This document shows positions 3,730 to 49,130 of a stretch of DNA of 64,000 bases, piece after piece. The notes under the pieces are model-generated. The model saw nothing but the letters and a program-made list of their open reading frames with translations. It did not search any database and was not told the origin of the DNA. A program made the translations under genes and the position numbers. The stretch comes from Pseudoroseomonas cervicalis. Its GTDB lineage: Bacteria; Pseudomonadota; Alphaproteobacteria; Acetobacterales; Acetobacteraceae. The first letter of the stretch is position 1; each line of letters starts with the position of its first letter. The DNA is taken from positions 386,224 to 450,223 of the forward strand of contig NZ_JAUTAJ010000002.1 in NCBI RefSeq assembly GCF_030818485.1, written 5' to 3'.

Positions 3730-4275
3730 TCAGCGGCGCAGGCGCCGCCGCTCCAGCGCCAGCTGCGGCGTCTCGCCCGCTTCCCAGGCATTGGCGCCCG
3801 GCGCCAGCTGCGGCACCGGGATATCGGCCCGTGCCTGCCGCTTCTCGGCCGAGGACACGCCCGCCGCCCGGTCGCGCGCCGCCAGCCTGGCCGGGTCGAG
3901 CTGCCCCTCGCCGGTGAAGCCCATCATCAGCTGCGGGATGCCGAGCGGCAGCGCGTCGCCGCGATCCACCTGCCAGGTATGCCAGGTCTTGCCATAGGTG
4001 GTGGCGAGCTGGCGCATCACCGTCGTCTCCACCGCCTGCGGCACGCCGGGCATGATCAGCTGGCCGGAGGTCGTCTCGAAATGATGGCTGTGCCAGAGCG
4101 GCTTCTCCGCCTCCGGCAGGGAGCGGAACAGCCTTTCGGAGACGATGTATTCGATGCCGATCAGCCGCGCCCCGGCGCCCGGCCCGTCGAAGATGGCGCA
4201 TTGCTGCAGCTCCTCGGAGAGATGCGTGCAGTAGTGATGCGCCTCGACCGCGCGGCCGAGTTCGTCGGCATAGAA
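3730..4275 (-). pseudogene. DUF1264 (OBAP-like) gene, C-terminal fragment cut by prophage
   Basis: The minus-strand frame runs from the attachment core (codons F-Y-A) to the stop at 3730 and reads FYADELGRAVEAHHYCTHL, then ELQQCAIFDG, IGIEYIVSERLF, LWHSHHFE, and TYGKTWHTWQVDRGDALPLG. These are the conserved blocks of the DUF1264 / oil-body-associated-protein family. There is no start codon at the break: the first 92 residues of the same gene lie at 48726-49012, on the far side of the prophage. An internal ATG (4053) could start only the last 107 residues. Function of bacterial DUF1264 proteins is unknown to me. Confidence 0.9.
4265..4275. repeat. Attachment site core, left (attL)
   Basis: TCGGCATAGAA, identical to 48726-48736. 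On the minus strand it encodes the F-Y-A codons plus two bases of the next codon in both halves of the split host gene. The integrase stop lies 22 bases inside. Confidence 0.9.
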
Positions 4276-4296
4276 CTATCTATTTAGGTTTATCAG

Positions 4297-5328
4297 TTAC
4301 TTGCCGCCTCGGTTTCCAATTTTTTCCAATCGGGCAGAAACTTTGGCCATCGCCGCCTCCGCCATAGTCTTCTGGTCCGCTGAACGGGTGTAGTGCGCCA
4401 CCATCTGCAGGGTGCGATGGCCGGTGACGGCCGCAATCTCGTGCACGCTGCAGCCAGCTTCAGCCAACCGCCGAGCCGCCACTTTTCTCAGCCCGTGTAG
4501 GCCGAGGCCACGAAGGCCAATCTGCTTCAGGAAATACCGAAGCCCATCCGTGAGTCGTTGAGGCGTCCACGGAATGCCATCATCGTTGGTCAGAATGTGA
4601 GTGGAGGCGCGTCCGCCACGCCAAACGGCTAGCTCTGCAGCCAGATCGGGATGGATAGGAAGAGTAAGCGCCACCTTTGTCTTCAGTTGGACCAACTGAA
4701 TAGAGCCTGTTGCTACCTGCCCCCATGTCATTGCGCAGAGATCGCCTCTTCTCTGACCGGTAAAAACCGCCAGCAACATCGCGCGGCGAAAATGCTCTGG
4801 AGCACGAGAAAGCGCAAACGCCAGCTCGTCCTCTGACCATGCCTGAAGCTCTCCAATAGGTAGTTTCTTTATCCTGGCGCAGGGATTGCTAGAGATACGT
4901 TCCCGATCCATAGCCCACATCAAGAAGGCGGACAAATTTTGGACAAAAGCGTTTGCGCTGGCATTGCCGTGACCTAAAGCGATACTGTCGCGCATGGTTA
5001 GAACCATGCCGCGAGTGATGTCGCTCAGGTTCTCGACCTTGAATCCTTCAAGGCGCGAAAGACTCCGCCTTCTGATTTTCTGAGTGACAGCTGCAAGTCG
5101 GGCGAAATCGGGCGACGAGTAGTGATCCGTAATCGAATCTCGAACTTCGCAGCCTGAAGCAAAAGCCTTGGGCTGTTGTTTCGCCTTCGCTAGGGCTGCT
5201 AGAAAGCGCCTGTCGGACGGATCAGGTAGACGTTCGCCGGTCGCGCGCAGGTAGTAGTATTCCGCTGTGCTGCCGTCGGCCTTGAGCTTCACGATCCGTT
5301 TTACGCCTCGCGGCAGCTTCGGCGCCAT
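4297..5328 (-). CDS. int: Tyrosine recombinase (phage integrase)
   Basis: 343 residues. An N-terminal SAM-like/core-binding region (about 60-170) precedes the catalytic domain. Visible catalytic residues: Arg193 in TGQRRGDL, Lys about 216-218, His278-x-x-Arg281 in HGLRK, His304 in TGHRT and the nucleophile Tyr313 in AHYTRS. Start chosen at ATG 5328 (MAPKLPRG); longer in-frame starts would lie within the overlapping upstream gene. It sits beside attL and is the last gene of the leftward arm, overlapping the excisionase-like gene by 107 bases. It would catalyse site-specific insertion and excision at the DUF1264 attachment site. Codon use is less GC-rich than its neighbours. Confidence 0.95.
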   Translation of the reverse strand: MAPKLPRGVKRIVKLKADGSTAEYYYLRATGERLPDPSDRRFLAALAKAKQQPKAFASGCEVRDSITDHYSSPDFARLAAVTQKIRRRSLSRLEGFKVENLSDITRGMVLTMRDSIALGHGNASANAFVQNLSAFLMWAMDRERISSNPCARIKKLPIGELQAWSEDELAFALSRAPEHFRRAMLLAVFTGQRRGDLCAMTWGQVATGSIQLVQLKTKVALTLPIHPDLAAELAVWRGGRASTHILTNDDGIPWTPQRLTDGLRYFLKQIGLRGLGLHGLRKVAARRLAEAGCSVHEIAAVTGHRTLQMVAHYTRSADQKTMAEAAMAKVSARLEKIGNRGGK

Positions 5329-5551
5329 ATGCGGTGATCCTTGCCCTGAGTTCTTCGATCCGACGCGCATGTGAGCTTGTGCCGAACACGTCGTCCAGCG
5401 CTTGCCGGTCCCATCGAGGCGTTCTGGGCCCAAGATGCAGGCTCGGCTCCGGGATCTTCCCTGCCCTGACCAGCCTCGGCAGTTCGTCCACGCGGACGGA
5501 GAGGTACTTGGCCGCCGCATCGCGGTCCAGCCAGCGGGGGGCGTCATTCAT
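5222..5551 (-). CDS. Excisionase-like helix-turn-helix protein
   Basis: 109 residues starting MNDAPRWLDRDAAAKYLSV, the MerR/AlpA-like winged-helix beginning used by phage excisionases and DNA-binding adaptors (DRDAAAKYLSVRVDELPRLVRAG). Start at 5551 has GGAGG 8 bases upstream. Directly upstream of, and overlapping, the integrase gene. A role in excision is inferred from fold and position. Confidence 0.7.
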   Translation of the reverse strand: MNDAPRWLDRDAAAKYLSVRVDELPRLVRAGKIPEPSLHLGPRTPRWDRQALDDVFGTSSHARRIEELRARITAYGAEAAARRKTDREAQGRRQHSGILLPARDRRTST

Positions 5552-5921
5552 GGGCGGCCTCCGTCTCCAGAATTGGCCTGTCGTCATTCAGCCGCCCGTG
5601 CTTGGCAGCATCCAGCAGGATGCCAAGGCAGGCACGGGCATGGGCTAGGTGGGACTGGCCGGACTCTGCGTCTGTGTTCTCGCCTTCCCACCAGGCTAGC
5701 AGGTGGCGCATCGCGGCGGCCTGATAGACGCTCGCGGACACGTTGTGCTCACGCCAGTTGTAGGCGCCGTACTTGCGGGCCCCGAGCCCGAACACCTCAG
5801 CCTCGGCGATCAGGGCTGGCGGCGGAATTAGGTGCAGCGGCGTCTTCAGCACACCGTACCGGGTCTTCGGGTTGCTGTCCGGGTGGTCTGCCTGGACGGC
5901 GGCAACGATGGGGTCACGCAT
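5544..5921 (-). CDS. DUF5664 protein, dNTP diphosphohydrolase-like
   Basis: 125 residues with the family pattern G-A-R-K-Y-G-A-Y-N-W-R at about 50-60 and AAMRHLLAWWEGENTDAESG, followed by H-L-A-H-A-R-A-C-L. This matches small phage proteins assigned to the dATP/dGTP diphosphohydrolase (DUF5664) family, all-alpha enzymes related to MazG that would hydrolyse deoxynucleoside triphosphates. Acidic residues suited to metal binding (E-G-E-N, D-A-E) are present. It overlaps the neighbouring genes on both sides and belongs to the leftward early transcript with the ThyX-like gene, suggesting nucleotide-pool control during infection. Confidence 0.65.
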   Translation of the reverse strand: MRDPIVAAVQADHPDSNPKTRYGVLKTPLHLIPPPALIAEAEVFGLGARKYGAYNWREHNVSASVYQAAAMRHLLAWWEGENTDAESGQSHLAHARACLGILLDAAKHGRLNDDRPILETEAAHE

Positions 5922-6216
5922 CGGCGAACAGCTCCATCTGCACGGCCTTTGCCACCGCTGGCGACGGGATGGCCGCGGCGAGGGTGTCAAGGTGGGCGGC
6001 GTGAAAGCGGGTCTTGTGCGGCGTCTCTGCCGGCAGACCGAGCCTCTGCATGGTCTCCCTCCAGCGCCGCCCATTCCAGGCCATGAAGCGGCCACCGTTG
6101 CCGTCACGATCCCAGGCTTCCTTCGTGCTGGTCGCCCCCGTGGCCAGCGTGTAGGCCAGGAAGTAGGGGTTGGCGTCGATCCTCGCTGCCTCTGCGACGA
6201 GCTGGGCTGCGGTCAT
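5914..6216 (-). CDS. Hypothetical phage protein (100 aa)
   Basis: Start at 6216 (MTAAQLVAEAARIDANPYFL) with AGGAGGG upstream; ATGA overlap with the gene before it. No family recognised. The centre (RFMAWNGRRWRETMQRLGL) looks helical and basic. Part of the leftward early operon. Confidence 0.7.
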   Translation of the reverse strand: MTAAQLVAEAARIDANPYFLAYTLATGATSTKEAWDRDGNGGRFMAWNGRRWRETMQRLGLPAETPHKTRFHAAHLDTLAAAIPSPAVAKAVQMELFADA

Positions 6217-6530
6217 GCCCCGCCCTCCTTCGCGCCGGGCCGGGCTGCAAAGGCTGCATCCAGGGCATCGCAAGCCTGAGCGACCACCTGCTCGTAATCC
6301 GCAGGCCGATCGCAATATGGCGCCAGTTCGTCGGCGGCTGCTTGCACCATGTCGCCGGTCGGTGGCCAAGCGATGACCCGCAGCGACCCCACCGGCTGCT
6401 GGAGCTGCTCGGGGGTGAGGCCGAGAGCCCGACCGACGAAGTAGGCGATGTCCTCATCGTCCAAGTGCGACGTGCGACCGTCCAGCAGGCATGCCTGGAT
6501 GCGCTGGAGATAGGATATCTGCTCAGCCAT
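6213..6530 (-). CDS. Hypothetical phage protein (105 aa)
   Basis: Start MAEQISYLQRIQACLLDGRT at 6530; 8-base overlap with the upstream gene and ATGA overlap with the next. Acidic, mostly helical (DDEDIAYFVGRALGLTPEQL). No family recognised. Confidence 0.7.
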   Translation of the reverse strand: MAEQISYLQRIQACLLDGRTSHLDDEDIAYFVGRALGLTPEQLQQPVGSLRVIAWPPTGDMVQAAADELAPYCDRPADYEQVVAQACDALDAAFAARPGAKEGGA

Positions 6531-6783
6531 GGTCGGCGGGTCCTTGCTGGTGGGTGGGGGTGGCAGTCTCCCGTTCGATGCTTCGGATGCCCGGCATCTG
6601 TTGCCATTGCCGAACGTCCGGGACAATCTGCCCACTGTCGGCAAACCACGCGCCTTGGCCATTGCGCCAGAATACGTCGAAGGTCGCCCAACGGAATGCA
6701 TTCGCCCCCGCGCTGAGAACCCGAGTTCGTGTGCCCGTAGGAGGCCGCTCGGCAGGGAACATCAGCCATAGATCACCCGGCAT
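6523..6783 (-). CDS. Hypothetical phage protein (86 aa)
   Basis: Start MPGDLWLMFPAERPPTGTRT at 6783, preceded by AGGAGG; an in-frame start 10 codons earlier is less well placed. Tryptophan-rich (DVFWRNGQGAWFADSG). No family recognised. Confidence 0.65.
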   Translation of the reverse strand: MPGDLWLMFPAERPPTGTRTRVLSAGANAFRWATFDVFWRNGQGAWFADSGQIVPDVRQWQQMPGIRSIERETATPTHQQGPADHG

Positions 6784-7402
6784 CGTCGGCGCCTCCTGCA
6801 GACTGACACACATCGCAGAGGACGGTGTGGCGCTCGCCCGGCCCGGCGGCCCAACGCCAACCCTTGTCGTCGCACCATGAGCACCGCTTGCCTTCGTCTG
6901 CGGGCGGGGTCGGGATCAGGGCGAGGATGCGGCGGCAGGTGCGGCCCTTTAGAGCTTCCTCAGCCGCGCGCGCCTCTGTCCACTGCGGCGCGGTGCATGG
7001 TTCATCAAGCGCCGCCTCAGCCGCCCGCCGCAGCCCCCTAGCCTCAGCCTCCGCCAGTTGGGCGGCGAGGTGGTCGGTGCCGTCAGGTTCAGGACGGCCA
7101 CGGATTTGCCCGGCGAGACTTCCCGCCGCAGCACTCCACGCCAAAGCGGTTTTGCCGGTCGTGCCCTTGCCAAACTGCTCCAGCGCATCGCACACCTTGG
7201 CACACGCCTCCCGCTCCGCCTTCACAGCCGCTTCGATCCTGGCGGGCACGGCCTGGCGCTCGCGGAGGAGGGCGCGGAACATCGATGCCACCTCCTTCGC
7301 CCCGAGATCGACGGAAGGTTCTGACCGGTTGAATGCCCGCGCTTCCTGTCGCCGGATCATTGCCTCCACCTCGGCGTCGCTCGGAACCTGGTCAGCCGGC
7401 AT
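6773..7402 (-). CDS. Hypothetical phage protein with C-terminal zinc-finger-like cysteines
   Basis: 209 residues from MPADQVPSDAEVEAMIRRQE (7402). Helical, charged N-terminal half (REACAKVCDALEQFG; EALKGRTCRRILALIPTP), then a C-terminal CSWC-x(18)-CDVC pair suited to bind one zinc. Similar composite phage proteins are common in early operons but have no assigned function. It overlaps both neighbours. Confidence 0.7.
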   Translation of the reverse strand: MPADQVPSDAEVEAMIRRQEARAFNRSEPSVDLGAKEVASMFRALLRERQAVPARIEAAVKAEREACAKVCDALEQFGKGTTGKTALAWSAAAGSLAGQIRGRPEPDGTDHLAAQLAEAEARGLRRAAEAALDEPCTAPQWTEARAAEEALKGRTCRRILALIPTPPADEGKRCSWCDDKGWRWAAGPGERHTVLCDVCQSAGGADDAG

Positions 7403-7577
7403 CGCGAGCCTCCTTCTGCGTCGGGGATGTGAGGGCGGTCTTGGCGATGTGAGCCAGCGGAGCGCGGCCGGACCAAGGCTCGCTGCCGGCAATCTTCGTC
7501 AGAGCCTCCCGCAGCCTCGCATTCTCCGCCTCCAGCTCCGCCATCCGTTGAGCCGTCGCGCACATCGGTTTGCACAT
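7392..7577 (-). CDS. Small coiled-coil phage protein (61 aa)
   Basis: Starts MCKPMCATAQRMAELEAENA at 7577; the segment MAELEAENARLREALTKIAG is a short coiled coil, followed by a polar tail. ATGA overlap with the upstream membrane peptide gene. The CKPMCA pair could bind metal. Function unknown. Confidence 0.6.
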   Translation of the reverse strand: MCKPMCATAQRMAELEAENARLREALTKIAGSEPWSGRAPLAHIAKTALTSPTQKEARDAG

Positions 7578-7726
7578 CACCAGATCTTCCCGCTGCTGCA
7601 CTGGGCCATAAGGGCGACGATCGCGGCCAAGCCGACCCATTCGACGACCGTGGAGACGGTATTTCCCCAGGTCTTGAGGGTGTCGGCCCAGGCGACAGAC
7701 GGCGTGGGTTCATTCTTCATAGCCAT
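7577..7726 (-). CDS. Small single-span membrane protein (49 aa)
   Basis: Starts MAMKNEPTPSVAWAD at 7726 with a soluble N-terminus and one hydrophobic helix near the C-terminus (WVGLAAIVALMAQCSSG). Overlaps both neighbours by a few bases, which supports translation. Role unknown; one of three tiny membrane proteins in this operon. Confidence 0.6.
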   Translation of the reverse strand: MAMKNEPTPSVAWADTLKTWGNTVSTVVEWVGLAAIVALMAQCSSGKIW

Positions 7727-7944
7727 CACCCCATCCCCCCACACCGCCGCGGGCACGACTCTCGACGCAGGCGGTCGAGTTCGTCGCCCAGGTCGCGGTT
7801 CGCGTCGCACGCCTCGTGGAACAGCAAGCCGGTGCGGGCCAGGGCCAGAATCTGCCCGGCTGTCAGCGTGGCCGGCTCGTTGGCGCCCATGCTGGAGAAC
7901 TGCCGCTCAATCGCCAGCAGCGTCTGCTTGGGGATCATGCTCAT
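7726..7944 (-). CDS. Hypothetical phage protein (72 aa)
   Basis: Start MSMIPKQTLLAIERQFSS at 7944 overlaps the stop of the ThyX-like gene (TGATG). C-terminal half is charged (DANRDLGDELDRLRRES) and ends in CPRRC. No family recognised. Confidence 0.65.
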   Translation of the reverse strand: MSMIPKQTLLAIERQFSSMGANEPATLTAGQILALARTGLLFHEACDANRDLGDELDRLRRESCPRRCGGMG

Positions 7945-8723
7945 CACGCAGCCTCCCTCATCTCGATCTCGTGGCGGTAGGTGCGCCAGCCGATCAGCGC
8001 GCCGATCTGGTCTTCGCCATCAGCCATCGGGCGGGCGACGTGCTCGAAGGGGGTCATGTGCTTGTCCGTCAGCAGGCGACCCGCAAGGCGACGATCCTCG
8101 ACAGGATCGGCGGCGCTGCCATCGTGCTTGCGGTAGCTCGACCGGGCCACGCGCGCCGAAGCTTCGTCGCGATCGCCATCCGAGTAAGGCGTGTGCCACT
8201 CGTCATAGTCGAGCCGGGCCGGCCGGCTGGCTTCCATGCTTTCTCGCATGGCCCGCGCCAGCATCTGCATCTCCGGCTGAGCATCGTGCGCCAGGCGCAG
8301 CGCGAAGAAGTTGGCCGTGTCGGTCGCCGTGATGACGCCGCGCACGGTCAGGAACGGCTCAAGCAAGCGGTTGGCGTGCTGCTTGTGGACGCCGATCCGC
8401 TGCATCGCCTTGGCGTAATACAGGGCCCAGTAGGTTGCCGACGACCATATCTGGAGAGCCGCGTCCGCATCCTCCACCTCTTGGTCAGACACCATCCCAG
8501 GCTTGTTCTTGCCAAAAGAGGACGGCACAAATGGATTGCTCTCCACCCGCTCGATGTTCCGCTGGACCGGCACAGCCCGCGAGCTCTCCCAGCTCTTGAC
8601 CAGCGCTCGATGCGTGTTGACTTGGGCGACTAGGAACTTCGGCGCTTCCACCTGCCAAGTGATCAGCCGAGAGCCGGAGGTCGACACGCTGTCGCGGATG
8701 ACGATAGCCTCGATCTTGCTCAC
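7944..8723 (-). CDS. ThyX-like protein (FAD-dependent thymidylate synthase family, permuted form)
   Basis: 259 residues. Blocks of the ThyX family are all present but reordered: the RHR-type motif comes first (THRALVKSWESSRA, residues 37-50), then GVHKQHANRLLEPF (111-124) and FFALRLAHDAQPEMQMLA (139-156), while the part that normally precedes the RHR motif, ARSSY then KHMTPFEHVARPM, is at the C-terminus (193-233). This circularly permuted order is known in phage ThyX-like proteins. Canonical ThyX converts dUMP to dTMP with methylene-folate, FAD and NADPH. Here the motif positions usually held by Ser, Asn and Glu are changed (V, S and W or E), so activity or substrate may differ. Lies in the leftward early operon with the DUF5664 gene. 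Confidence 0.75.
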   Translation of the reverse strand: MSKIEAIVIRDSVSTSGSRLITWQVEAPKFLVAQVNTHRALVKSWESSRAVPVQRNIERVESNPFVPSSFGKNKPGMVSDQEVEDADAALQIWSSATYWALYYAKAMQRIGVHKQHANRLLEPFLTVRGVITATDTANFFALRLAHDAQPEMQMLARAMRESMEASRPARLDYDEWHTPYSDGDRDEASARVARSSYRKHDGSAADPVEDRRLAGRLLTDKHMTPFEHVARPMADGEDQIGALIGWRTYRHEIEMREAA

Positions 8724-9451
8724 TGCGCCCGAGCCTCCAGCGCATCCCAGCGTGCCGTCCGGACGATGCCGATCAGCTTGCGAACGACGCCTCTCGCCAC
8801 GTCCAGGGCGTCATGGCCGCGGAACGCTTGGCGCAGGCCGGATGCCTCGGCGATCTTGTCGATGGTCTCGTTTTCGATGTCGCGCAGGCTCTTGAGCTTG
8901 CACACCCGCTCAAGAGCAGCGCTCTCGGCTCGGCCCCTTTTGCTGGAATCGAACTCGATCTCCACCGACACAGGCGGAGGCTCGGGCGGCATCACGCTCG
9001 GCAGCCTCGCCACCTTGCGCTCCACCTCGGGCTTCACCGGTACGGCCCGCCGCGACCGCAGACCGATCGTCGCCGCGTACTTGAGCATCGCCGAGACGGT
9101 GATGGTCCTCTTGCTGGGGTCTACCCTGGAGACGGCGCGCGCGATCTCCTCGTCAGTGAGGTCGCGGCTCCACAGCTCCGCAAGCTTGGCGGCGCGGGCC
9201 TCGGTCCACACCTTGGGGCCGTTGCTCACCTTGTAGGCGCATGCCTTGCACTGCCGCAGATCGCCATGCCGCAGGCGGCGCGTCTCGCTGACGACCTCAG
9301 CCCCGCAGGCGCAGCGGCAGAGCCATTCGACACCCTGTCGCCCAGGGCGGAGCGGCATCAGCCGCTCCACGGTCAGGCGGCCGTAGATTTGGCCGTGCAG
9401 GTTGAGGGCGCCGGGCGGGAGGCTGGGGGTGGTTGAGGTTGTGGCGCTCAT
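8720..9451 (-). CDS. Zinc-ribbon plus GcrA-like HTH regulator
   Basis: 243 residues in three parts. Residues about 18-75 hold C-R-C-A-C-G and C-K-A-C, a zinc ribbon. Residues about 80-135 (WTEARAAKLAELWSRDLTDE, then KYAATIGLRSR) match the N-terminal DNA-binding region of GcrA, the alphaproteobacterial cell-cycle regulator that works with sigma70 and adenine-methylated promoters. The C-terminal 100 residues are charged and unassigned. Start 9451 has GAGGG upstream. A phage GcrA-like protein could redirect host transcription or bind phage promoters; this is inference. Confidence 0.65.
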   Translation of the reverse strand: MSATTSTTPSLPPGALNLHGQIYGRLTVERLMPLRPGRQGVEWLCRCACGAEVVSETRRLRHGDLRQCKACAYKVSNGPKVWTEARAAKLAELWSRDLTDEEIARAVSRVDPSKRTITVSAMLKYAATIGLRSRRAVPVKPEVERKVARLPSVMPPEPPPVSVEIEFDSSKRGRAESAALERVCKLKSLRDIENETIDKIAEASGLRQAFRGHDALDVARGVVRKLIGIVRTARWDALEARAQ

Positions 9452-9454
9452 CCC

Positions 9455-10555
9455 TCAGCCCTCCCCGCCATTCGCGCCGGCAAGCTTGGCGTCGAGCGCC
9501 TGCTGCACGCGCATGACGATGTCTCCGTGGTCGGCGGCGTACTCGCCCATGAGCGACCCGTTCAGCTCCCGGGCCCGCTTCAGCGTCTCGGGCTTCTCTC
9601 CGGCGATGATCTTCAGCCAGGCGGCGCCCCACGCGTCGGCCGTGGGGTGCTCGATGTTGCCGCGGCTGGTCTTGATGACGAACGCGGCCGGCGACTGGCC
9701 CACTGCCTGCTCCAGCGCGTCGAGCTTGCCTCCTTTGGCCGCGTCGACAGCCGGCGCGTCCTTCGGCCCGAAGTGGTCAGCCACCTTGCTCTGCCCATCC
9801 TTAAGGCTCGTGGCGATTGCCTTGAGGTCGACCAGCTCGTCAGGCGTGGTCTGGTCGATCGGATGGTTCAGGTAGGTCTGGAGCATGACCGGGGTCACGC
9901 CATAGCCGGCCAGGAAGCGCACCATGCTGTTGATGCGGTCCGACAGCGGCAGGTCGCTGCCATCCCGCAGGGTCTTGCGCACCTGGGCAACTGCGGCGTC
10001 GGTCAGGTCAGGCGGCAGGATGGCCAGGATGCGGGCCCGGACACGGCGCGAGCCCATGTTGGCCGTGATCTCGTAGATGTCGCGCTCCTCGCGCAGCTCC
10101 TGCGGGCCGCCCTTCTTGTCGCGGAGGTGCCGCACCGTGAAGTTCTGGACGCTGCGGACGTTGGTCTCGAGGTCCCAGGCAAAGGCCTCCATCTCGGAGT
10201 AGCCATCTTTGCGGGACAGCTCGCGCAGGCCGTATTCGACGTTGCCCCAGCAGCGCGCCAGCTCCTCGGCCAGACGGATCGACGGGCCCTCGACGTTCCC
10301 GCCGCCGCGGCTGTAGCGATACAGCCCCGCCTCAGCCAGGGACGGCCGGCGGCAGGCATCGATCGCTCGAGCAGCGGCCAGCGCCGTGTCGCGCGGGAAG
10401 CGCTTGGCCAAGATCATCTTGCCCTGGGCTTCTGCGACCGCCCGCTCGCTCTCGATGGCGACGGTGCCGGCATTCACATGCGCCGGGGCGCTCTTGGCGA
10501 AGGGGTTGGCAACGACGCCGACAATCTCGGGCGTCAGCTCATGGTGTTCGCTCAT
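9455..10555 (-). CDS. Putative phage recombination (single-strand annealing type) protein
   Basis: 366 residues. The central blocks GGNVEGPSIRLAEELARCWG, RDIYEITANMGSRRVRARIL and ILPPDLTDAAVAQVRKTL occur in a phage protein family that is repeatedly encoded next to YqaJ exonucleases, as here (the exonuclease gene overlaps by 4 bases). By analogy with exonuclease/annealing pairs such as lambda Exo-Beta, this is the likely annealing partner acting on single strands made by the nuclease. I infer function from the pairing, not from a catalytic motif. The C-terminal ~90 residues (AAKGGKLDALEQAV onwards) look like a separate helical domain. Confidence 0.6.
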   Translation of the reverse strand: MSEHHELTPEIVGVVANPFAKSAPAHVNAGTVAIESERAVAEAQGKMILAKRFPRDTALAAARAIDACRRPSLAEAGLYRYSRGGGNVEGPSIRLAEELARCWGNVEYGLRELSRKDGYSEMEAFAWDLETNVRSVQNFTVRHLRDKKGGPQELREERDIYEITANMGSRRVRARILAILPPDLTDAAVAQVRKTLRDGSDLPLSDRINSMVRFLAGYGVTPVMLQTYLNHPIDQTTPDELVDLKAIATSLKDGQSKVADHFGPKDAPAVDAAKGGKLDALEQAVGQSPAAFVIKTSRGNIEHPTADAWGAAWLKIIAGEKPETLKRARELNGSLMGEYAADHGDIVMRVQQALDAKLAGANGGEG

Positions 10556-14300: not shown

Positions 14301-14310
14301 GCCTGGACAC

Positions 14311-40616: not shown

Positions 40617-42800
40617 ATGTCGGGGACCTCCTCGCCTGACGTGATCCTGCGCGCGCGCCTGGGTCCGTATCCGAGCGCACGTCGGCAGCGGGCCGCCCTC
40701 GGCTCGACCGTGCGGATCTATGTGGATGTCGTGGACGCGCTCACCGGGCAGCTCGTGCCGGGGGCGTCAGGCCTGTCGGGCATGTACTGGCTGCCAAGCT
40801 TCACGGATCCCGTCGCGCCTGGGCAGCCGGCAGTGGTGTGGGAGGATACCCCCGGCACGCTCGCGATGGACGTGCCTGTGGACGAGTTTGGTACCTATAC
40901 CGCTCTCGTCGGCATCCAGGAACCGAGCGCCGAGGCGATTGAGCCCTTTCGGTTCGACGCTCCCGGCGATGGTGGCCCTATCCTGACACGCGAAGAGTGG
41001 ATGTCGCTCTATGGTGCGGGCGCCGCGGCCGGGGCCAGCGCTGCGATTGCCGAGGCTCGCGTCGCAGTCCCCGCTATCGCCGTGCCGCTGGCAGAGCAGG
41101 CGGCCCTGGACATCACAGCGCCTCTAGTGGCCGAGACCAAGGAGGCGCGGGACCAAGCCATCGAAGCCAAGGGCGAAGCAGGCGATAGTGCGCTGCTTTC
41201 ACAGCAGCGGGCGACGGAAGCCAACCTGGCGCGCCAAGCTGCGGAGGCTGCCGCGGCGGCGGTGGTGGACACCGTGGCCAATCCTGCCATCCGCATCCCG
41301 ACCGTGGCGCAGCTGCTGGAGTACCTTCCGACGCCTCAGGTTGGCGACCGGGTCGAGGTCTATGCAGACCCTGCTTACCCGCTGACCGCAAATCCCGACG
41401 GCTCCAACCGCAACGGCTTCTGGCGGTGGGACGGGTCGGCGCTGGTCTTTGAGGGGCTCTCCGCCAACGCGATCCGCGCGGTGGTGCAGGACGTCGTCAA
41501 CACGCTGATGTTGGCGCCCAACGGGCTTCTGGACTCTCCCGACCTGCTGTTGGCGCAGCGCGACGCGGTCGGCCGCCTGCTGATGGCGGTCAAGCCTGAT
41601 GCCACCATGATGGCAAAGCTGGGGATTGAGATCGGCCAGGGCCTGCGCCTGGACTACCTGCCCAGCGAGCAGGGCACCATCACGCGCCTCCGGCTCGGAG
41701 ACGCCGACGGCCGCCTGCCGATCGGCGGTGCTGTGGTCGACGCCACCTATCAGACCGTTGAGGGGGACATCAGCGCTACGGTGGATGCTGCCGGCCGCAT
41801 GCTTGGCTATCACGACCGAGCGGGTGTGCAGTGGGCCAAATATGGGCTTGATGCCGAGGGCATCAGCGTGACCCATGGCCCTGGCCCGCGCACCAAAATC
41901 GCGCTGGGGGCGGACGGCAAGATCCCGCTCGGCAACACCGTGCTGGACAGCACATTTGCGACCGTGGAGGGCGACATCTCCGCGCAGGTGCAGCTGGATG
42001 CGCAGGGCCAGCGGCGGGTCATCAGCATCACAGACAAGGATGGCAACGTCTCGGGCCGCTATGCGGGCGGTGCGGTGTCGGCCGAGGTCGAGGCGGCGCG
42101 CGGCACGCGGCCCAGCCTGGCGGCCCGGCTCAGCGTCGGCATCATGCCCTCCGGCGCGATCCCTATCGGCCACATCTATGGCGCCGCTTACCTGCGCGAG
42201 ACGCGGCAGCGGCTCATGAAGCTGGAGATGGGCGACACAGATGCGGGCGCGCTGTTCACCGTGGCGCTGATCGGTGATTCGTTCACGCAGGCTTCCCCGC
42301 GCTACGCCGGCCCGCTGATTCAGCGTCTCCGGTCGCGCTATGGCAATGCCGGCGCCGGCTGGGTGTCGTTCTCCTGGTCGGGCTCGAGCATCGGCAGTTC
42401 CGCACTGGGAAATATCGTCGACACCGATGTGCCGCTCCGATTCTTCGGATCGCTCTCCAAGCACATCAACGACAGCGAAAGCCCCGACAGCGCGGATCTG
42501 CGCATGTCGGTGGACGGCTGCGCGATCGAGGTCGACGTGCCGGCCGGCCAGACGCGCGCGCGTCTCGCGTATCGGGGGACCGGCGGCGTTGCGGCCTCCG
42601 TCCGGTATCGCTGGGGTGCGGATGCCTGGACGGTCATCGACATGTCCACGACCACAGGCCCGACCTGGGTGGATTTTCCGCCGCCTCCGGTTGGCGGCGG
42701 CACGCTGCGGTACGAGTGGGTGTCTGGATCGACCGTGACCTATGGCATGGAACTGCGAAACGCGTCGCCTGGCGTGCGCGCGGGCACAAGTTGGGCGTGA
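40617..42800 (+). pseudogene. Tail fibre with SGNH hydrolase domain, 5' part of a frameshifted gene
   Basis: 727 residues before a premature stop. N-terminal immunoglobulin-like attachment region (TVRIYVDVVDALTGQLVPGA), coiled coil at about 145-220 (AKGEAGDSALLSQQRATEAN), repeated beta units (VVDATYQTVEGDISATVDAA; VLDSTFATVEGDISAQVQLD), then SGNH block I ALIGDSFTQ with the nucleophile Ser at about 555. The remaining blocks are in the -1 frame from 42716 on. A single-base deletion in the GTGCGCGCGGGC stretch near 42775-42784 explains this. SGNH fibres deacetylate surface polysaccharide. Could also be a sequencing error. Confidence 0.8.
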
Positions 42801-43258
42801 GCGGTAGCTATCTCCAGCAGTGGGCGACGATCAACGAGGCCGGCTGGATCGCCAATCTGGCGCAGCTGGAGCCGCATCTGGTGACGCTGACCTTTGGCAC
42901 CAACGATCAGCGATTTTACAGCCCGGCCGAGTATGCGGGCTACCTACAGACGATGATCAGCCGCATCCGCACCGCGCGGCCGGCGGCGGACATCCTTATC
43001 GTCTCCCCCGAGGCCAACGTCGCCGAGCCCGAGCGGCAATGGCCCATGACCGGCTATCGCGATGCCACGCTGGAGATGGCCGCGGCCAATGGCTGCGCGT
43101 GGCTCGATCTGCAGCCGCTGTTTGGGCTCAGTCCCGCAGATTACGCGAGCGGCAGCGCGCGCCCCTGGCTCAATCCCGACGGTACGCACCCCGACCCGCT
43201 GACCGGCGGCCGTGCCATCGTCGCGGCGCTCTATCGCCTCCTGATCTCCGCAGCCTGA
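42716..43258 (+). pseudogene. 3' part of the frameshifted SGNH hydrolase tail fibre
   Basis: True homology begins near 42779 with R-G-H-K-L-G-V-S-G-S-Y. Contains SGNH block III L-T-F-G-T-N-D and block V D-G-T-H-P-D (catalytic Asp and His). Without the upstream Ser block it is incomplete; the start at 42716 is only the first ATG in this frame. Joined, the two parts give about 885 residues. Confidence 0.8.
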
Positions 43259-43270
43259 GAGGATCCCCGC

Positions 43271-44371
43271 ATGGCCAATATGCTTTTGCAGACGCTGCCC
43301 GGCGTCGCGACCGATACCAGCTTGCCCGTCCTGCGGCGGGATCGCGTCCTCGCCGATGCGCGCGATGGCGTGCTGTGGCTTTCCGACTTGGCCTATCCCT
43401 GGTGCTACTCCGGCCTGCCCCCGGCCGATGGCGCGGTGGTCCGTGATATCGCCGAGCGCGGCACGGACGGCTCTCTGGTGATCGGCGCCGGCGCTCCGCC
43501 CACCTATGCCGGCGGCGGGCTCGATTTTGACCAAGCCACCGGGCCCGGTCACTACATGCGGGTGCCGCCCCGCGTGGCTGCGGCGCTCTGGTCGGCCGGC
43601 GGCTCTGGTTTCGCAGCGACGGCAACGGTCGCGAGCGGCGCCGTCACCGCCCTCAATCTGTCCTCGGGCGGCACTGGCGCTGTCGGCGGCTACACCGGGA
43701 CGCTGCCGCTGCTCATCTCGGGCGGTGGGGGCAGCGGTGCGGCCGGCACGGCGACGGTGGCCAATGGCGTCGTCACGGGCCTGACCCTGACCGCGGGCGG
43801 CTCCGGCTACACCTCAGCCCCGGCCGTCACCCTGCTGGGGCCGCAGCACTACCTGGTCATGATATATGTGCGGCTGCCGCCGCTCTCGCAGTGGCCGGCC
43901 GCCGGCACGCTGCTGCCTTTCCTTTCGTGGGGCAAATACAACGTGGCTGCCGACCTGCTCAGCATTGGCATGCTCCAGGGCGCCGGCGGGCTGCTGACGC
44001 TGCGCCGGCAGACGGCGATCAATGTCCAGAGCGGGCTCAATCTCCAGCCCGCAGCCGGCGACTATGGAAGCGTTGTGCAGCTGGCCTATTGGCGCAACGC
44101 GGCCGGCGTCGGCGCGCGCCTCCGCTCGGCCAACGGGACCGTCCTGGCGACGGGCGCCGTGGGGGCCAATAATGTCGCCGATTTCTCCGCGCTCGCAGGT
44201 CGCTTCGGCATCGATCCGGGCGACTGGTGGACCGGGTCGCTGCCGCAGAATCATGGCAACTGGCGCGCCTACCGGCTGATGGTTGAGGATCTGGCCGTGA
44301 GCCGGCGCGACCCGGTGACCGTGCTCGACTCCGATTACACGCGCACTATGGCGCGCGGCGTGTTCAGCTGA
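43271..44371 (+). CDS. Tail fibre protein with glycine-rich repeats (366 aa)
   Basis: Two copies of the phage-fibre repeat G-S-G-x-A-A-T-A-T-V-x-x-G-x-V-T-x-L-x-L-T-x-G-G-S-G lie at about 112-195 (SGFAATATVASGAVTALNLS; SGAAGTATVANGVVTGLTLT). N-terminal region (MLLQTLPGVATDTSLPVLRR) and a concanavalin-like C-terminal beta domain (YLVMIYVRLPPLSQ; DPGDWWTGSLPQNHGNWRAY). Likely part of the host-recognition apparatus with the SGNH fibre. Confidence 0.75.
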   Translation: MANMLLQTLPGVATDTSLPVLRRDRVLADARDGVLWLSDLAYPWCYSGLPPADGAVVRDIAERGTDGSLVIGAGAPPTYAGGGLDFDQATGPGHYMRVPPRVAAALWSAGGSGFAATATVASGAVTALNLSSGGTGAVGGYTGTLPLLISGGGGSGAAGTATVANGVVTGLTLTAGGSGYTSAPAVTLLGPQHYLVMIYVRLPPLSQWPAAGTLLPFLSWGKYNVAADLLSIGMLQGAGGLLTLRRQTAINVQSGLNLQPAAGDYGSVVQLAYWRNAAGVGARLRSANGTVLATGAVGANNVADFSALAGRFGIDPGDWWTGSLPQNHGNWRAYRLMVEDLAVSRRDPVTVLDSDYTRTMARGVFS

Positions 44372-44378
44372 CACCGCC

Positions 44379-44888
44379 ATGCCTGACAGCCAAGGCGGAG
44401 GCCTCAGCGCTATCGGCGCCAAGCCGGCCATGACGGTGGGTCAGCTGGTGACGGGGCTGACGGTGGTGCTGCCGCTGGTGGCCTTCGGGTGGACCGCCTG
44501 GTCGAGCATCAGCTCAGCCAACACCCAGGCGATCCAGCTGCAGGAGCGGCAATCTCAGACCCTCCTGCAGCTCAGCAACCAGCTCGCTGAACAGCGGCAG
44601 ATGACGCATCAATTTGTCGGCCAGGCCGGCGAGATGCGCAGCATGATCGTCGAGCTGCGCACCCAGACGGCTGTCCTGCAGCGCGATAGCGACCGGCAGC
44701 GCGAGGACACCGATCGCCGCTTTGAGGCGACTCGCCAGTCCATCCAGCAGTTGCGAGACCTGATCGCCCGCATGGCCCTGCAGCCGCGCGGGCAGTCGGA
44801 CTCTCCACCGATCGCCGACACGGCGCCGCTGCCCAACAGCGACACCGGCCTGGTCTGGCGTCCTGTCCTGCGGCTGCCGCTGGACTGA
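44379..44888 (+). CDS. Membrane-anchored coiled-coil protein of the lysis module
   Basis: 169 residues: short cytoplasmic N-terminus, one transmembrane helix (about 19-42, VGQLVTGLTVVLPLVAFGWT), long coiled coil (about 55-130, RQSQTLLQLSNQLAEQRQMT; REDTDRRFEATRQSIQQLRD) and a Pro/Ser tail. This topology is that of an inner-membrane spanin (Rz-like); no outer-membrane partner is visible. Precedes the holin-like and endolysin genes. Confidence 0.6.
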   Translation: MPDSQGGGLSAIGAKPAMTVGQLVTGLTVVLPLVAFGWTAWSSISSANTQAIQLQERQSQTLLQLSNQLAEQRQMTHQFVGQAGEMRSMIVELRTQTAVLQRDSDRQREDTDRRFEATRQSIQQLRDLIARMALQPRGQSDSPPIADTAPLPNSDTGLVWRPVLRLPLD

Positions 44889-44937
44889 GTTCCGCGCCCG
44901 GCCGGCAGCCGGGCAAATCCTCACATAGGAGGCGCAT

Positions 44938-45309
44938 ATGCGCTTTCTCGTGGACCGGCTCCGAGAGCCGGGCACGCTGCGTTCGCTCGCGGTCGTGCTG
45001 TTCGGGCTCTGGGGTGTTGCGCCCAGCGACCCGGTGGTCGAAGCGGCCATCCAGATCGGCATCATCCTGCTCGGCCTCGTCTCGGCAGTGATGCCGGAAA
45101 AAACTTCGGAAGCGGCCGAAGCGGTGGCCCAGGCGGCCGGCGCGGCACGAGAGACCGCGGCCAAGGCTGCCGTGGCGGCTAGCGAAGCCAAGGCTGCGAC
45201 CTCTCAGGCCACGCAGCTTGTGGGCAGCGCCCGCGCTCTGGCCGAGGCAGCGAACGTGCGGATGCTGCCGAGCCAACCCGGGCCGGGCCCGGAGTACATG
45301 GGCCGATGA
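44938..45309 (+). CDS. Holin-like membrane protein (123 aa)
   Basis: Two hydrophobic segments (about 16-29 and 36-52: LAVVLFGLWGV; AIQIGIILLGLVSAVM) then an Ala-rich amphipathic helical tail (EKTSEAAEAVAQAAGAARET). AGGAGG precedes the ATG. Sits directly before the endolysin with an ATGA overlap, so a holin is the likely role. Confidence 0.65.
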   Translation: MRFLVDRLREPGTLRSLAVVLFGLWGVAPSDPVVEAAIQIGIILLGLVSAVMPEKTSEAAEAVAQAAGAARETAAKAAVAASEAKAATSQATQLVGSARALAEAANVRMLPSQPGPGPEYMGR

Positions 45310-45992
45310 CCCTCCTCGCCCGCTTGCTCGCCATTCTGGGTCCAGGGCGGGAGGCCTCATCCGCCGCCAGCACCGCCCCGGCAACCCAGCCCGTCGCCGC
45401 CACTCCGGCGGTCCCTGTCCATGCGGTCGGGGATGCCCCGGCCGCGCCTCCCCTCGCCCTTCGCCCTGCTGAGACGCCCATGACCCCGACCCAATTCCGC
45501 GCTCAGGTGATCGAGCCCGGCGCCGCCTGGACGGAGGACGCTTGTGGGCTCACCTCATCCGTGGCGGCGCGGCGCCTCCTGCTTGCCATCGCCATCCAAG
45601 AGAGCGGGCTGCGCTATCGCCGGCAGGTGCTGGCCAATGGCCAACCCGGCCCCGCCAAGAGCTTTTGGCAGGGGGAAAAGACCGGGGGCATGATCCTCGT
45701 GGCAACCTCGACCAAGATCAGCCCCAGCATCCGCAGCAAGGGCGAGGCGCTGTGCCGCGCCGCCGGCGTCCTTCCCACGGCTCTGTCCATCTGGAACGCC
45801 ATCGAGCACCACGATCTGCTGGCCTACGGGCTGGCTCGGCTGCTGCTGTGGTCGGACCCTCATGCCATCCCCGAGACCGAAGACGCGGCGTGGCGCTGCT
45901 ATGCGGACCGGCTGTGGCGGCCGGGCAAGCCGCACCGGGATCGGTGGGTAACGAGCTGGGCGCAGGCGGTTCGGGAGTATCCGGCTAACTAG
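45306..45992 (+). CDS. Endolysin (lysozyme-like transglycosylase family)
   Basis: 228 residues. After an Ala/Pro-rich N-terminal ~60 residues comes the muramidase-like domain: LLLAIAIQESGLRYRRQVLA with the catalytic Glu of an E-S motif, GPAKSFWQGEKTGGMI, and a helical remainder (WRCYADRLWRPGKPHRDRW). Known in prophages of Rhizobiales and Rhodospirillales. MTLLARLLAIL at the start could be a membrane-targeting signal; an internal ATG at 45480 gives only the catalytic domain. Confidence 0.8.
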   Translation: MTLLARLLAILGPGREASSAASTAPATQPVAATPAVPVHAVGDAPAAPPLALRPAETPMTPTQFRAQVIEPGAAWTEDACGLTSSVAARRLLLAIAIQESGLRYRRQVLANGQPGPAKSFWQGEKTGGMILVATSTKISPSIRSKGEALCRAAGVLPTALSIWNAIEHHDLLAYGLARLLLWSDPHAIPETEDAAWRCYADRLWRPGKPHRDRWVTSWAQAVREYPAN

Positions 45993-46056
45993 ATGCCAGG
46001 CCGTCCCTATGCTCTAAACATGTATCGCGTGCGATTCATGCTTGAGGGGGCCGGCG

Positions 46057-46716
46057 GTGAGCGAATACCCGCTTCGAAAGAAGATATTTGAGGCGGCGCA
46101 GGGCCTCGGTGAATCTTGGCATCAGGCGGGGAATTTGCCCGCGCGGGTCCTGGATTTCATATGGAATGCGCTTGACCTGCAGTTTCCGGATGGCCCCCGC
46201 CTTACGGTCGAGACTGGGTGCGGTCTTTCCACCATCCTCCTGAATGCCAGGAGCCGCCAGCATGTCAGCTTCACCATCGGTGGTGATGTGGATGACAGCC
46301 TCGGGCGGGTGCAGGCATCCGAGATGTTTGACGGAGCCAACACCAAGTTTGTGCTCGGTCCATCTCAGGCCACCCTACATGACTTCAAGGGCTGCCTGGC
46401 CAGCCAGGGCATTGATCCCGAGTTGCGGGTTGATTTTGCGCTGATCGATGGCGCCCACGCATACCCGTGCCCCGAACTAGACTATTGGCACATTTACCCA
46501 TACCTCAATAGCTGGGGCCTCTTGGCCGTGGACGATATCCACATCCCTACGATTCACAGGCTTTACGAGTTCCTGCGCGCAGACGACATGTTCGACTTCT
46601 ACGCGGTGGTCGAGAACACGGCATTCTTCGTGCGCAATGCCAGTCCGATGCACGACCCATATCTCGATTACTGGGACCGGCAAGGGTTCAACCGAAAGGC
46701 CCTAGGTCTGAAATAG
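46057..46716 (+). CDS. SAM-dependent methyltransferase-fold protein (cargo)
   Basis: 219 residues from GTG 46057 (GAGGGGG upstream). LTVETGCGLSTILLNARSRQ is a class I SAM-binding motif I; DFALIDGAHAYPCPELDYWH, then LNSWGLLAVDDIHIPTIHRL is the Methyltransf_24-type active region. The C-terminus (VENTAFFVRN) also fits. It follows the lysis genes, outside the usual virion set, and is more AT-rich, so it is likely cargo. Substrate unknown; relatives modify sugars or small molecules. Confidence 0.7.
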   Translation: MSEYPLRKKIFEAAQGLGESWHQAGNLPARVLDFIWNALDLQFPDGPRLTVETGCGLSTILLNARSRQHVSFTIGGDVDDSLGRVQASEMFDGANTKFVLGPSQATLHDFKGCLASQGIDPELRVDFALIDGAHAYPCPELDYWHIYPYLNSWGLLAVDDIHIPTIHRLYEFLRADDMFDFYAVVENTAFFVRNASPMHDPYLDYWDRQGFNRKALGLK

Positions 46717-46748
46717 ATCGGCCGAGCCGTAAGCCTGCGTTCGTGAGA

Positions 46749-46783
46749 AGCCCGCCCTGGCGCTGGGCCAGGGCGGGCTTTTT
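46749..46783 (+). terminator. Terminator of the late operon
   Basis: AGCCCGCCCTGG (46749-46760), 7-base loop, exact complement CCAGGGCGGGCT (46768-46779), then a run of T to 46783. Confidence 0.92.
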
Positions 46784-46796
46784 GCGTTGCAGGGCG

Positions 46797-47015
46797 TCAG
46801 CCTGGCCCGTGCTGGTCGAGCATCGAGATCAACGCCCGCATCTCGCCGGAGCCGGGGCTTTCGTCATGCCAAAGCCGGCGCACGTGCTGCTGGATGGTCT
46901 TCAGCGGTCGCGGGTCGCCGCGAGCAATGAGGAAGCGGCAGAAATCCGCCTGCCGCATCCCCCACTTCTCAAGGGCGCCCCGGAACCACTGGTTGTCGAT
47001 CAGCGGTTGCGACAC
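46797..47015 (-). CDS. Small HTH-like protein (72 aa)
   Basis: GTG start at 47015 with AGGG six bases upstream, 16-base overlap with the preceding minus-strand gene. FRGALEKWGMRQADFCRFLI, ARGDPRPLKTIQQHVRRLWH reads like a helix-turn-helix with a basic recognition helix. Possible regulator of the cargo region. Confidence 0.55.
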   Translation of the reverse strand: MSQPLIDNQWFRGALEKWGMRQADFCRFLIARGDPRPLKTIQQHVRRLWHDESPGSGEMRALISMLDQHGPG

Positions 47016-47164
47016 AGCCCTAGCGCCTTCATGGCCCGCCGGATCAGTCCAGGGCGTCGGTTCGGGTCGTTGCCGCCCCCGCCCCCTTCCCGGCTGACGT
47101 GGATCTTAACCTTGATACGGGGAAACCTGAGACGCGGCCCCGTTCCCGCCACTGCGGTGGTCAT
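47000..47164 (-). CDS. Small basic protein (54 aa)
   Basis: Short frame: MTTAVAGTGPRLRFPRIKVK, then I-H-V-S-R-E, five glycines and RRPGLIRRAMKALGLCRNR. GGAGA lies 8 bases before the ATG (47164) and the stop lies inside the start of the next gene. Strongly basic; nucleic-acid binding possible. No family recognised. Confidence 0.5.
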   Translation of the reverse strand: MTTAVAGTGPRLRFPRIKVKIHVSREGGGGGNDPNRRPGLIRRAMKALGLCRNR

Positions 47165-47207
47165 CGGTTGAAATCTCCGAAGGGTTGCCTTACGTCTTCA
47201 AGGCGGT

Positions 47208-47236
47208 GGAGAGGGCCGTTGGCCCGACCCTCTCCC
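47208..47236. other. Hairpin between the 24-residue and 54-residue genes
   Basis: GGAGAGGG and CCCTCTCC arms around a loop that contains CCGTTGGCCCGA. No T-run on the minus strand, so not a clear terminator; might cap or attenuate the minus-strand transcript. Confidence 0.4.
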
Positions 47237-47247
47237 CTTCGGCTACC

Positions 47248-47322
47248 TTAGAACTGGATGTCCACCGTGATGGTGAATTTCAGTCCCAGGAAGCGGAAGG
47301 TCCGCTTGAAGTAGATGTGCAC
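47248..47322 (-). CDS. 24-residue peptide gene with a consensus ribosome-binding site
   Basis: GTG start at 47322 preceded by AAGGAGGTGA, a ten-base match to the 16S anti-SD, with 9 bases from GGAGG to the start. Codes for a basic, aromatic-rich peptide (starts M-H-I-Y-F-K-R-T-F-R-F-L, ends T-V-D-I-Q-F) with alternating polar and hydrophobic residues. Could be a leader peptide, a membrane-active peptide or a signalling peptide; no evidence decides. A hairpin follows before the next gene. Confidence 0.5.
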   Translation of the reverse strand: MHIYFKRTFRFLGLKFTITVDIQF

Positions 47323-47372
47323 TCTGTATCACCTCCTTTCCTCCGGCCTCGTCCGCCGGTGAGGAATAGATA

Positions 47373-47385
47373 CTACGTCACGTAG
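47373..47385. promoter_or_regulatory. 13-bp palindrome between divergent cargo genes
   Basis: CTACGTCACGTAG is a perfect odd-length palindrome located between the 24-residue peptide gene (minus) and the nuclease gene (plus). Typical form and place of a repressor operator. Confidence 0.5.
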
Positions 47386-47389
47386 GATG

Positions 47390-47424
47390 GCGCAAGCGGT
47401 TTTCGGATCGCTTGCGCTTTTTTT
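47390..47424 (+). terminator. Terminator-type hairpin in the leader of the nuclease gene
   Basis: GCGCAAGCG (47390-47398) pairs with CGCTTGCGC (47409-47417), followed by seven T (47418-47424). No plus-strand gene precedes it within 650 bases, so it either blocks readthrough into, or attenuates, the nuclease gene. Confidence 0.8.
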
Positions 47425-47458
47425 GCGCCAGATTGCAGGCGTTTATGGGTTGAACCTG

Positions 47459-47962
47459 ATGCTGGGTCTTAGGAATGGGGCGGCTGTATGTGCGGTGGCC
47501 GTCATGGTGTCGCTGCTGGTCGCTCAAACGGCTTTGGCGACCGATCTGCGCGGCCAGGTGGTCGGCGTCCATGACGGCGACACCCTCACGCTGCTGACCT
47601 CCGAGCGCGAGCAAGTGCGCATCCGCCTGGCAGAGATCGACGCGCCGGAGACACGCCAGCCTTGGGGCACCAGGGCGCGGCAGGCTCTGGCCGCCATAGC
47701 ATTCCAAAAGCCTGCTACCGTGGTGGTGGTGGATACAGACCGCTACGGCCGCACGGTAGGAACGGTCTGGGTGGAGGGGCGCAACGTCAATGCTGAGATG
47801 GTGCGCGCCGGCCATGCCTGGGTGTACCGCCAGTACCTCCGGGACCGCTCCTTGCTGGCCGTGGAGGATGAGGCCCGCCGGGCGCGCCGCGGTCTGTGGC
47901 GCTTGCCAGAAGCCGAAAGGGTTCCGCCATGGGTGTGGCGGAGGGAGCGGCGGGACCACTGA
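47459..47962 (+). CDS. Exported staphylococcal-type nuclease (SNase/thermonuclease family)
   Basis: 167 residues from ATG 47459. Signal peptide (AAVCAVAVMVSLLVAQTALA) then a SNase domain: VVGVHDGDTLTLLT, VRIRLAEIDAPETRQPWGTR (catalytic Arg and metal-binding Asp; Glu in the A-E-I-D-A-P-E block), VVDTDRYGRTVGTVWVEGRN, VNAEMVRAGHAWVYRQYLRD. These are Ca-dependent secreted nucleases. In a prophage cargo position an exported nuclease could destroy incoming DNA in the periplasm or free nucleotides at lysis; function not known here. Confidence 0.88.
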   Translation: MLGLRNGAAVCAVAVMVSLLVAQTALATDLRGQVVGVHDGDTLTLLTSEREQVRIRLAEIDAPETRQPWGTRARQALAAIAFQKPATVVVVDTDRYGRTVGTVWVEGRNVNAEMVRAGHAWVYRQYLRDRSLLAVEDEARRARRGLWRLPEAERVPPWVWRRERRDH

Positions 47963-47974
47963 GTCCCGCCCCTG

Positions 47975-48322
47975 TCAGAGCTTCAGGCCCCTCCACCACT
48001 CCACCCGCTCCGTCCCGCCACCACCACCGCCTCGGCCACTCTGCAGGTGCGGCGGCGCTAAGACCGTCTCCCACACCTTGCCGCCGACGCGATCACAGAA
48101 GGCGATGATGTTGGCGTGCTCGTTGCAGTAGCCGCACCGGAGGCGCCTCAAGCCGCCCACGGTCTTGGGCCAATCGGGCTTCTCCAGCGCTTCCTCCACC
48201 GGCATCACGAGGGTGGGATGCATCGTCGCGCACCGGGCATACAGCACCCAGCCGCGCCACATCTCCAACGGCTCCTCCATGAGGCGGGCGCGGCGGCGGG
48301 CATCACTGAGGTTGTGGGCCAT
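47975..48322 (-). CDS. Hypothetical phage protein (115 aa)
   Basis: Starts MAHNLSDARRRARLMEEPLE at 48322. RRLRCGYCNEHANIIAFCDR contains a C-x-x-C and a third cysteine suited to metal binding, and a Gly-run precedes the end. Overlaps the next gene by 20 bases. Convergent with the nuclease gene. No family recognised. Confidence 0.6.
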   Translation of the reverse strand: MAHNLSDARRRARLMEEPLEMWRGWVLYARCATMHPTLVMPVEEALEKPDWPKTVGGLRRLRCGYCNEHANIIAFCDRVGGKVWETVLAPPHLQSGRGGGGGGTERVEWWRGLKL

Positions 48323-48572
48323 GGCCGCCCCGGGGCCGGACAGAGGTGAAGCCGGCATCCGATGGCGGCAGGCGCATCACCACATAGCCGCTGCGGTTGA
48401 GCATCCTCAGGACGCGATCCGCGACAATCCGGGTCGCAAAGTCATGAAGCTTGCGCGCTGGCTTGCCGCGCTCATCAAAGCCCAGCGCATAGGCCAGGCT
48501 CTCCGTGACCTCCTGCGCTGCGGCCAGGGACAGGTCTTTGGGCTCGTGGCCCCGCAGGTCTTGCTCGTCCAT
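48303..48572 (-). CDS. Hypothetical phage protein next to attR (89 aa)
   Basis: Starts MDEQDLRGHEPKDLSLAAAQ at 48572. Helical middle (FATRIVADRVLRMLNRSGYV) with a basic C-terminus. First gene inside the right end. No family recognised. Confidence 0.6.
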   Translation of the reverse strand: MDEQDLRGHEPKDLSLAAAQEVTESLAYALGFDERGKPARKLHDFATRIVADRVLRMLNRSGYVVMRLPPSDAGFTSVRPRGGHGPQPQ

Positions 48573-48633
48573 ATCGCTCGCACTCCGTTGCCCCCGAAGC
48601 ACCCTGGGGCACTGGATAGCGCGAGAACGTTAA

Positions 48634-48670
48634 GGGAACAAGTTGCCGGGGCGGTTTCCAGGCTGTTCCC
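48634..48670. repeat. Inverted repeat near attR
   Basis: GGGAACA (48634-48640) and TGTTCCC (48664-48670) in the 150-bp gene-free strip beside attR, with a nearby GCGGTTTCC/GCGGTTCC direct repeat. Candidate integrase or excisionase arm-binding sites. Confidence 0.35.
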
Positions 48671-48725
48671 GTGCGGTTCCGATATTTTCCACGTAGGTAT
48701 TTGAATTTGTTTGATTAACGCATGC

Positions 48726-48736
48726 TCGGCATAGAA
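48726..48736. repeat. Attachment site core, right (attR)
   Basis: TCGGCATAGAA, the copy of 4265-4275. Confidence 0.9.
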
Positions 48737-48962
48737 GTGGAAGCCGTTCAGGTACATGTCGAGCGCGCCGGGCGGCGCCTGGGATTGCAGCAGCGCGGCC
48801 CCGCCCTGCAGCGCCTGGCTGCGCGGCGTGGTGGGCTCGCCGGGCGGCGGGGGCGGATGGGCCGGCTCGGCCGCCAGGGCCTGGTGCGCCCGGCCGCAGG
48901 CGCAGAAGGCGAGGCCGGCGGCCAGGCCCGAGGCCAGCCGCCCCAGCAGGCGGCGCGGCAAG

Positions 48963-48998
48963 GCGGAGGCGGAGGCGGAGGCGGAGGCGGAGGCGGAG
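48963..48998. repeat. GGCGGA hexanucleotide tandem repeat
   Basis: About five to six perfect copies of GGCGGA, coding on the minus strand for the Ser-Ala repeat at the N-terminus of the split DUF1264 gene. Prone to slippage without changing the frame. Confidence 0.8.
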
Positions 48999-49130
48999 GG
49001 CGAGGCGGTCATCGGGGCATCCCTGCAAGGCGGCAGGAAGGCCAACCGCGCGGCGCGCCGCGGGTTCGCGGGCCCGCCGCCACGGGGGGCGGCGGGCCGT
49101 CAGGCGGGACGGATCAGGCGGGGCGGCGGC

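Follow-up and report, generated by a model that had tools for sequence, protein, structure and literature searches.

A temperate phage has almost certainly been inserted by a tyrosine integrase at an 11-bp core within a DUF1264 gene of the alphaproteobacterium Pseudoroseomonas cervicalis, in a way that precise excision would reverse. We analyzed a window of 64,000 nucleotides of contig NZ_JAUTAJ010000002.1, in which genes for a repressor, for replication and packaging, and for the phage head and tail, recognized with Pfam and PHROGs, lie between two copies of an exact direct repeat (Table 1). In the explanation that we favor, a long-tailed phage of about 44.5 kb would have integrated via its own tyrosine integrase, its target being the core TTCTATGCCGA (in gene orientation), which encodes a conserved F-Y-A of the host DUF1264 gene. 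Recombination there would have joined the N-terminal half of the gene to phage DNA at attR and left the C-terminal half without a start at attL, so that the only DUF1264 gene found in the genome would stay broken while the prophage is resident, and precise excision would restore it.

Table 1. Features of the split DUF1264 gene and of the prophage within it (positions in the window)
Feature	Position	Strand	Evidence or remark
DUF1264 gene, C-terminal half	3730..4275	-	181 codons + stop, core F-Y-A included; PF06884 profile 16-170, E 1.7e-64
attL, left attachment core, TCGGCATAGAA	4265..4275
Prophage body, 44,450 bp	4276..48725		phage families inside
Tyrosine integrase	4297..5547	-	open frame of at most 416 aa, with a start that may lie further in; PF00589 E 2.4e-18; phrog_1 E 1.3e-42
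Possible arm-type repeat CGGTTTCCA	4310..4318		starts 35 bp beyond attL, phage side; twin of 48652-48660
BstA-like protein, phage defence family, beside repressor	14344..15285	-	phrog_6287 E 1.4e-55; PADLOC BstA E 3e-19
CI/S24-type repressor	15423..16208	-	PF00717 E 7.1e-17; phrog_4 E 1.2e-36
D5-type primase/helicase	18578..20128	+	PF08706 E 2.6e-21; phrog_6088 E 1.5e-93
Terminase small subunit	22464-23117	+	phrog_83 E 1.7e-35
Terminase large subunit	23018-24802	+	phrog_9 E 8.7e-160
Portal	24799-26031	+	head module 24799..27952: phrog_12 E 6e-121, phrog_10 E 2.3e-91, phrog_80 E 1.6e-45
Head protease and major head protein	26028-26741 and 26753-27952	+	phrog_10 E 2.3e-91, phrog_80 E 1.6e-45
Tail tape measure protein	33322..37128	+	phrog_8010 E 7.2e-57
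Possible arm-type repeat CGGTTTCCA	48652..48660		starts 74 bp before attR, phage side
attR, right attachment core, TCGGCATAGAA	48726..48736
DUF1264 gene, N-terminal half	48726..49012	-	92 codons + core; open frame, homologues

A DUF1264 gene split at an 11-bp core

Joining the host flanks at one copy of the core yields 273 residues (92 + 181 codons) without a stop. The joined protein matches DUF1264 (PF06884) at E 2.1e-69 over profile positions 3-170 of 171, with 232.9 bits against a Pfam cut-off of 25; it is 50-74% identical to 21 chosen homologues, with which the junction sequence NGFHFYADELGRAVEAHHYCTH aligns without gaps. The original prediction, that a prophage splits a host DUF1264 gene and that the halves rejoin in frame at an 11-bp core, is borne out by the exact repeats at both broken ends, the PF06884 match of the join and the unbroken product of the expected family. 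It had counted 182 C-terminal codons and a separate F-Y-A; that half comprises 181 codons and a stop, with F-Y-A already included.

Neither half has an intact frame. From the ATG at 49012, the N-terminal half spans 95 host and core codons and continues for 106 more in phage DNA, to a stop at 48407; this start, taken over from the original prediction, is uncertain, since most homologue rows are match segments with a later beginning. In the first codons (about 48960-49003, minus strand), a six-base unit encoding Ser-Ala repeats recurs several times in a row, a region of which most homologue rows fall short. In the C-terminal half, an in-frame TAG stands directly before F-Y-A, and the first in-frame start, at 4053, would give 107 residues. 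The integrase gene points towards this half and shares its frame, and a TAA and a TAG separate the two, so the C-terminal half may be co-transcribed with the integrase, not translated as a fusion. As the genome (95% complete) has no DUF1264 match besides the two halves of the split gene, lysogeny probably removes DUF1264 function, and the truncated products presumably do nothing.

The repeat TCGGCATAGAA occurs only twice in the window and is as long as any word common to positions 4200-4330 and 48600-48800, which share no 12-mer. Alone it would carry little weight, because 3,773 distinct 11-mers are present at least twice in the window and this particular 11-mer occurs eight times across the whole genome. 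That both copies lie at the broken ends of one minus-strand gene, and that joining them restores both the frame and the family sequence, is beyond chance. The prophage has a GC content of 0.667, lower than the 0.733 and 0.748 of the host DNA to either side, and the two sides of attP are rich in A and T, with GC values of 0.48 (100 bases) and 0.42 (60 bases). The sole exact repeat of at least 9 bases within 250 bp on each side of the core is CGGTTTCCA, a possible candidate for an arm site; the same interval holds one 12-base pair with a mismatch. A tRNA-Ser call at 50268-50346 was rejected as likely false, because nowhere in the window does an Rfam family attain its gathering score.

The prophage and its integrase

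We scanned 29 prophage proteins, the shortest of 169 residues, with PHROGs. Further to the genes listed in Table 1, the prophage encodes a RecE-like nuclease, a thymidylate synthase homologue, connector proteins and tail proteins. Of 50,697 phage records, 2,320 contain a match to its large terminase, in every case at less than 60% identity. A staphylococcal-nuclease-like gene (47387-47962, plus strand; PF00565 E 9.2e-27) lies near the right end. Proteins of the BstA family are prophage-borne abortive-infection proteins, according to PMC8585504.

The integrase gene lies just inward of the left repeat, its 3' end 21 bp from attL. The sequence has R, HxxR, GH and Y motifs like those of tyrosine recombinases, and it is this integrase, encoded by the prophage itself, that we infer made the insertion. 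A search with a reach limited to close relatives confirmed no relative of the integrase in genome_contigs or viral_contigs. Across 200 family genomes the best relative reaches 45% identity, and at E <= 1e-40 relatives were found in six places in 5 of the 199 other family genomes, with at most 9 candidates scored per genome. None of the six stretches fetched around these relatives contains the core 11-mer, and none contains a tRNA. Past three of them, the DNA suggests other protein genes: in L041 a ribosomal S9 gene and in L039 a TonB-receptor-like gene, each represented by its end, and in L038 a small regulator-like gene. These names come from reading the translations and not from database matches; judged on these sequences, integrases of this group may often target protein genes. 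Relatives are carried as well by Azospirillum phage Cd and Komagataeibacter phages phiKX1 and phiKX2, phages of other alphaproteobacteria, but identity to them is only 34.5-41.3%.

Uninterrupted homologues and the target

The joined protein has a match in 14 of 58 genomes, namely its own, one of 41 more distant genomes (from another genus of the same family) and 12 of the 16 others of the genus, in which the uninterrupted homologue looked for in relatives is present and matches the joined sequence. In each of the 13 other genomes the best match is a single frame without stops. Within genome_contigs, 487 stretches encode a relative; we kept the best 80 of these 487, and the closest of them carry the names Pseudoroseomonas and Roseomonas. 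Each of the 92 homologous loci that we examined reads through the junction without a stop; they comprise the best 80 of 487 and 12 loci of the genus and family, partly from the same genomes, and amount to 84 distinct sequences.

At the scale of the family, DUF1264 is present in 38 of 397 sampled genomes, which makes the gene accessory, and this patchy presence suggests that its loss is tolerated. Among the 38, only the gene studied here is split at profile position 16. One genome (G003) has two further, poorer copies, one of them with stops. Its third, poor copy (L018) was considered as a second split at the junction, having a stop and a piece that starts from profile position 20, but the joined-protein query matches it over residues 5-151, and from its sequence the copy is decayed, not split at the prophage site. 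In two other genomes (G170:C343 and G368:C14), the DUF1264 match falls into two adjoining pieces and reads as a frameshift. Broken or frameshifted copies in these three genomes would fit either a dispensable gene or sequencing errors.

The 11 core bases are identical in 20 of the 84 distinct homologous genes, with one difference in 18 and two to six differences in 46. When only the 19 homologues of at least 59% protein identity are considered, 9 have an identical core, 9 have one difference and 1 has two. Ranked by conservation, the core is 14th of 591 windows in the 19 close homologues and 107th of 600 over all 84. Since the core is mostly kept in the close homologues, the phage uses a stretch that near relatives of its host tend to keep; conservation of the target is a usual property of attachment sites.

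A prophage-free copy of the same locus was not found among 12 relative DUF1264 loci or in the 16 other genomes of the genus. In the 12 loci, each covering 11-19 kb, the tested flank proteins gave at most weak matches, one of them being 33-35% identical in two loci; an additional relative, whose contig is 6 kb long, was left out. The flank protein at 3088-3666 is unmatched in all 16 other genomes of the genus. Given this lack of shared flank proteins, the compared homologues seem to sit elsewhere in their genomes. Against the favored explanation we count this failure to find the empty locus, the lack of an exact attP match in viral_contigs and the lack of close integrase relatives. Ten proteins encoded next to DUF1264 homologues are mixed; the homologues at L061 6837-7736 and L081 6984-8084 have LigD primase-polymerase and topoisomerase IB genes beside them, and the other scanned neighbours differ.

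Excision, precedents and function

SPbeta of Bacillus subtilis recombines through SprA, a large serine recombinase, whereas the prophage in DUF1264 has a tyrosine integrase. In both cases a protein gene is split by a prophage. Precise excision of SPbeta rejoins the halves of spsM, and excision there is demonstrated, developmentally regulated and functional (PMC4191935), whereas excision from DUF1264 is a prediction. The phiSa3int prophages of Staphylococcus aureus, such as phiSa3mw, are likewise inserted inside a coding sequence, that of hlb, which they inactivate; the gene and the host differ, and PMC6597384 reports active excision. The gin element of Bacillus cereus also interrupts a coding region, gerE, and is removed to rebuild the gene, but PMC5595907 describes it as sporulation-specific and not prophage-like. 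Protein-gene attachment sites are documented in these three sources (PMC4191935, PMC6597384, PMC5595907), and a prophage in DUF1264 is a well-known kind of event, ordinary as a phenomenon, at a new site.

An insertion that is frozen, with the prophage unable to excise and the split gene a pseudogene, would be compatible with the explanation favored above. No excisionase was recognized among the 29 scanned proteins, which says little because all of these are of at least 169 residues; excisionases are usually smaller. Nor was a free form found in viral_contigs, where the 32-base attP junction has no exact match. We nevertheless consider a frozen state unlikely, in that the two core copies have stayed identical, the integrase gene has an open frame and recognizable catalytic motifs, and the main structural genes are open. 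By the same features, the prophage would presumably still excise.

Another addition to insertion and restorable excision would be active lysogeny, in which regulated excision turns DUF1264 on under some condition, perhaps without phage production. Excision would restore the gene exactly, integrase and repressor are retained, and SPbeta in spsM and phiSa3mw in hlb provide precedents. Even so, we hold it very unlikely: there is no sign of regulated excision, an in-frame join being what any precise conservative site-specific recombination gives; no second prophage in DUF1264 was seen among the 38 bearing genomes of 397 or in viral contigs; and the gene is one whose loss seems to be tolerated. The scan of viral_contigs, made with an alignment of 22 DUF1264 sequences, confirmed no relative, although 12 stretches matched one of two motifs; both motifs lie in the C-terminal half, so that a lone N-terminal half at a contig end would be missed. 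Nothing in our results supports the reversible switch put forward in the original prediction. That excision under stress acts as a reversible, condition-dependent switch turning on DUF1264 in this alphaproteobacterium, which is not known to form spores, strikes us as highly improbable. Faulty assembly of unrelated pieces, for which only the failure to find a syntenic empty site would speak, is scarcely credible, as gene, frame and core agree between the two host flanks and a single contig of 450,223 bases contains the element in full.

Insertion by the phage at the 11-bp core, restorable by precise excision, remains our reading. Relatives of DUF1264 in plants are tied to seeds and oil bodies. 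No solved structural relative was found by profile at E <= 1, Foldseek finds no match at E <= 0.001 for the modelled structure of a homologue (mean pLDDT 82.6), and our literature search found no paper mentioning both DUF1264 and prophage. This case extends the range of protein genes that serve phages as attachment sites to a DUF1264 gene, and it defines an attB/attP pair with an 11-bp core for a tyrosine integrase from the Pseudoroseomonas group. The lysogen is a probable natural knock-out in a family without a named function, and comparison of cured with lysogenic cells would reveal the role of the gene.
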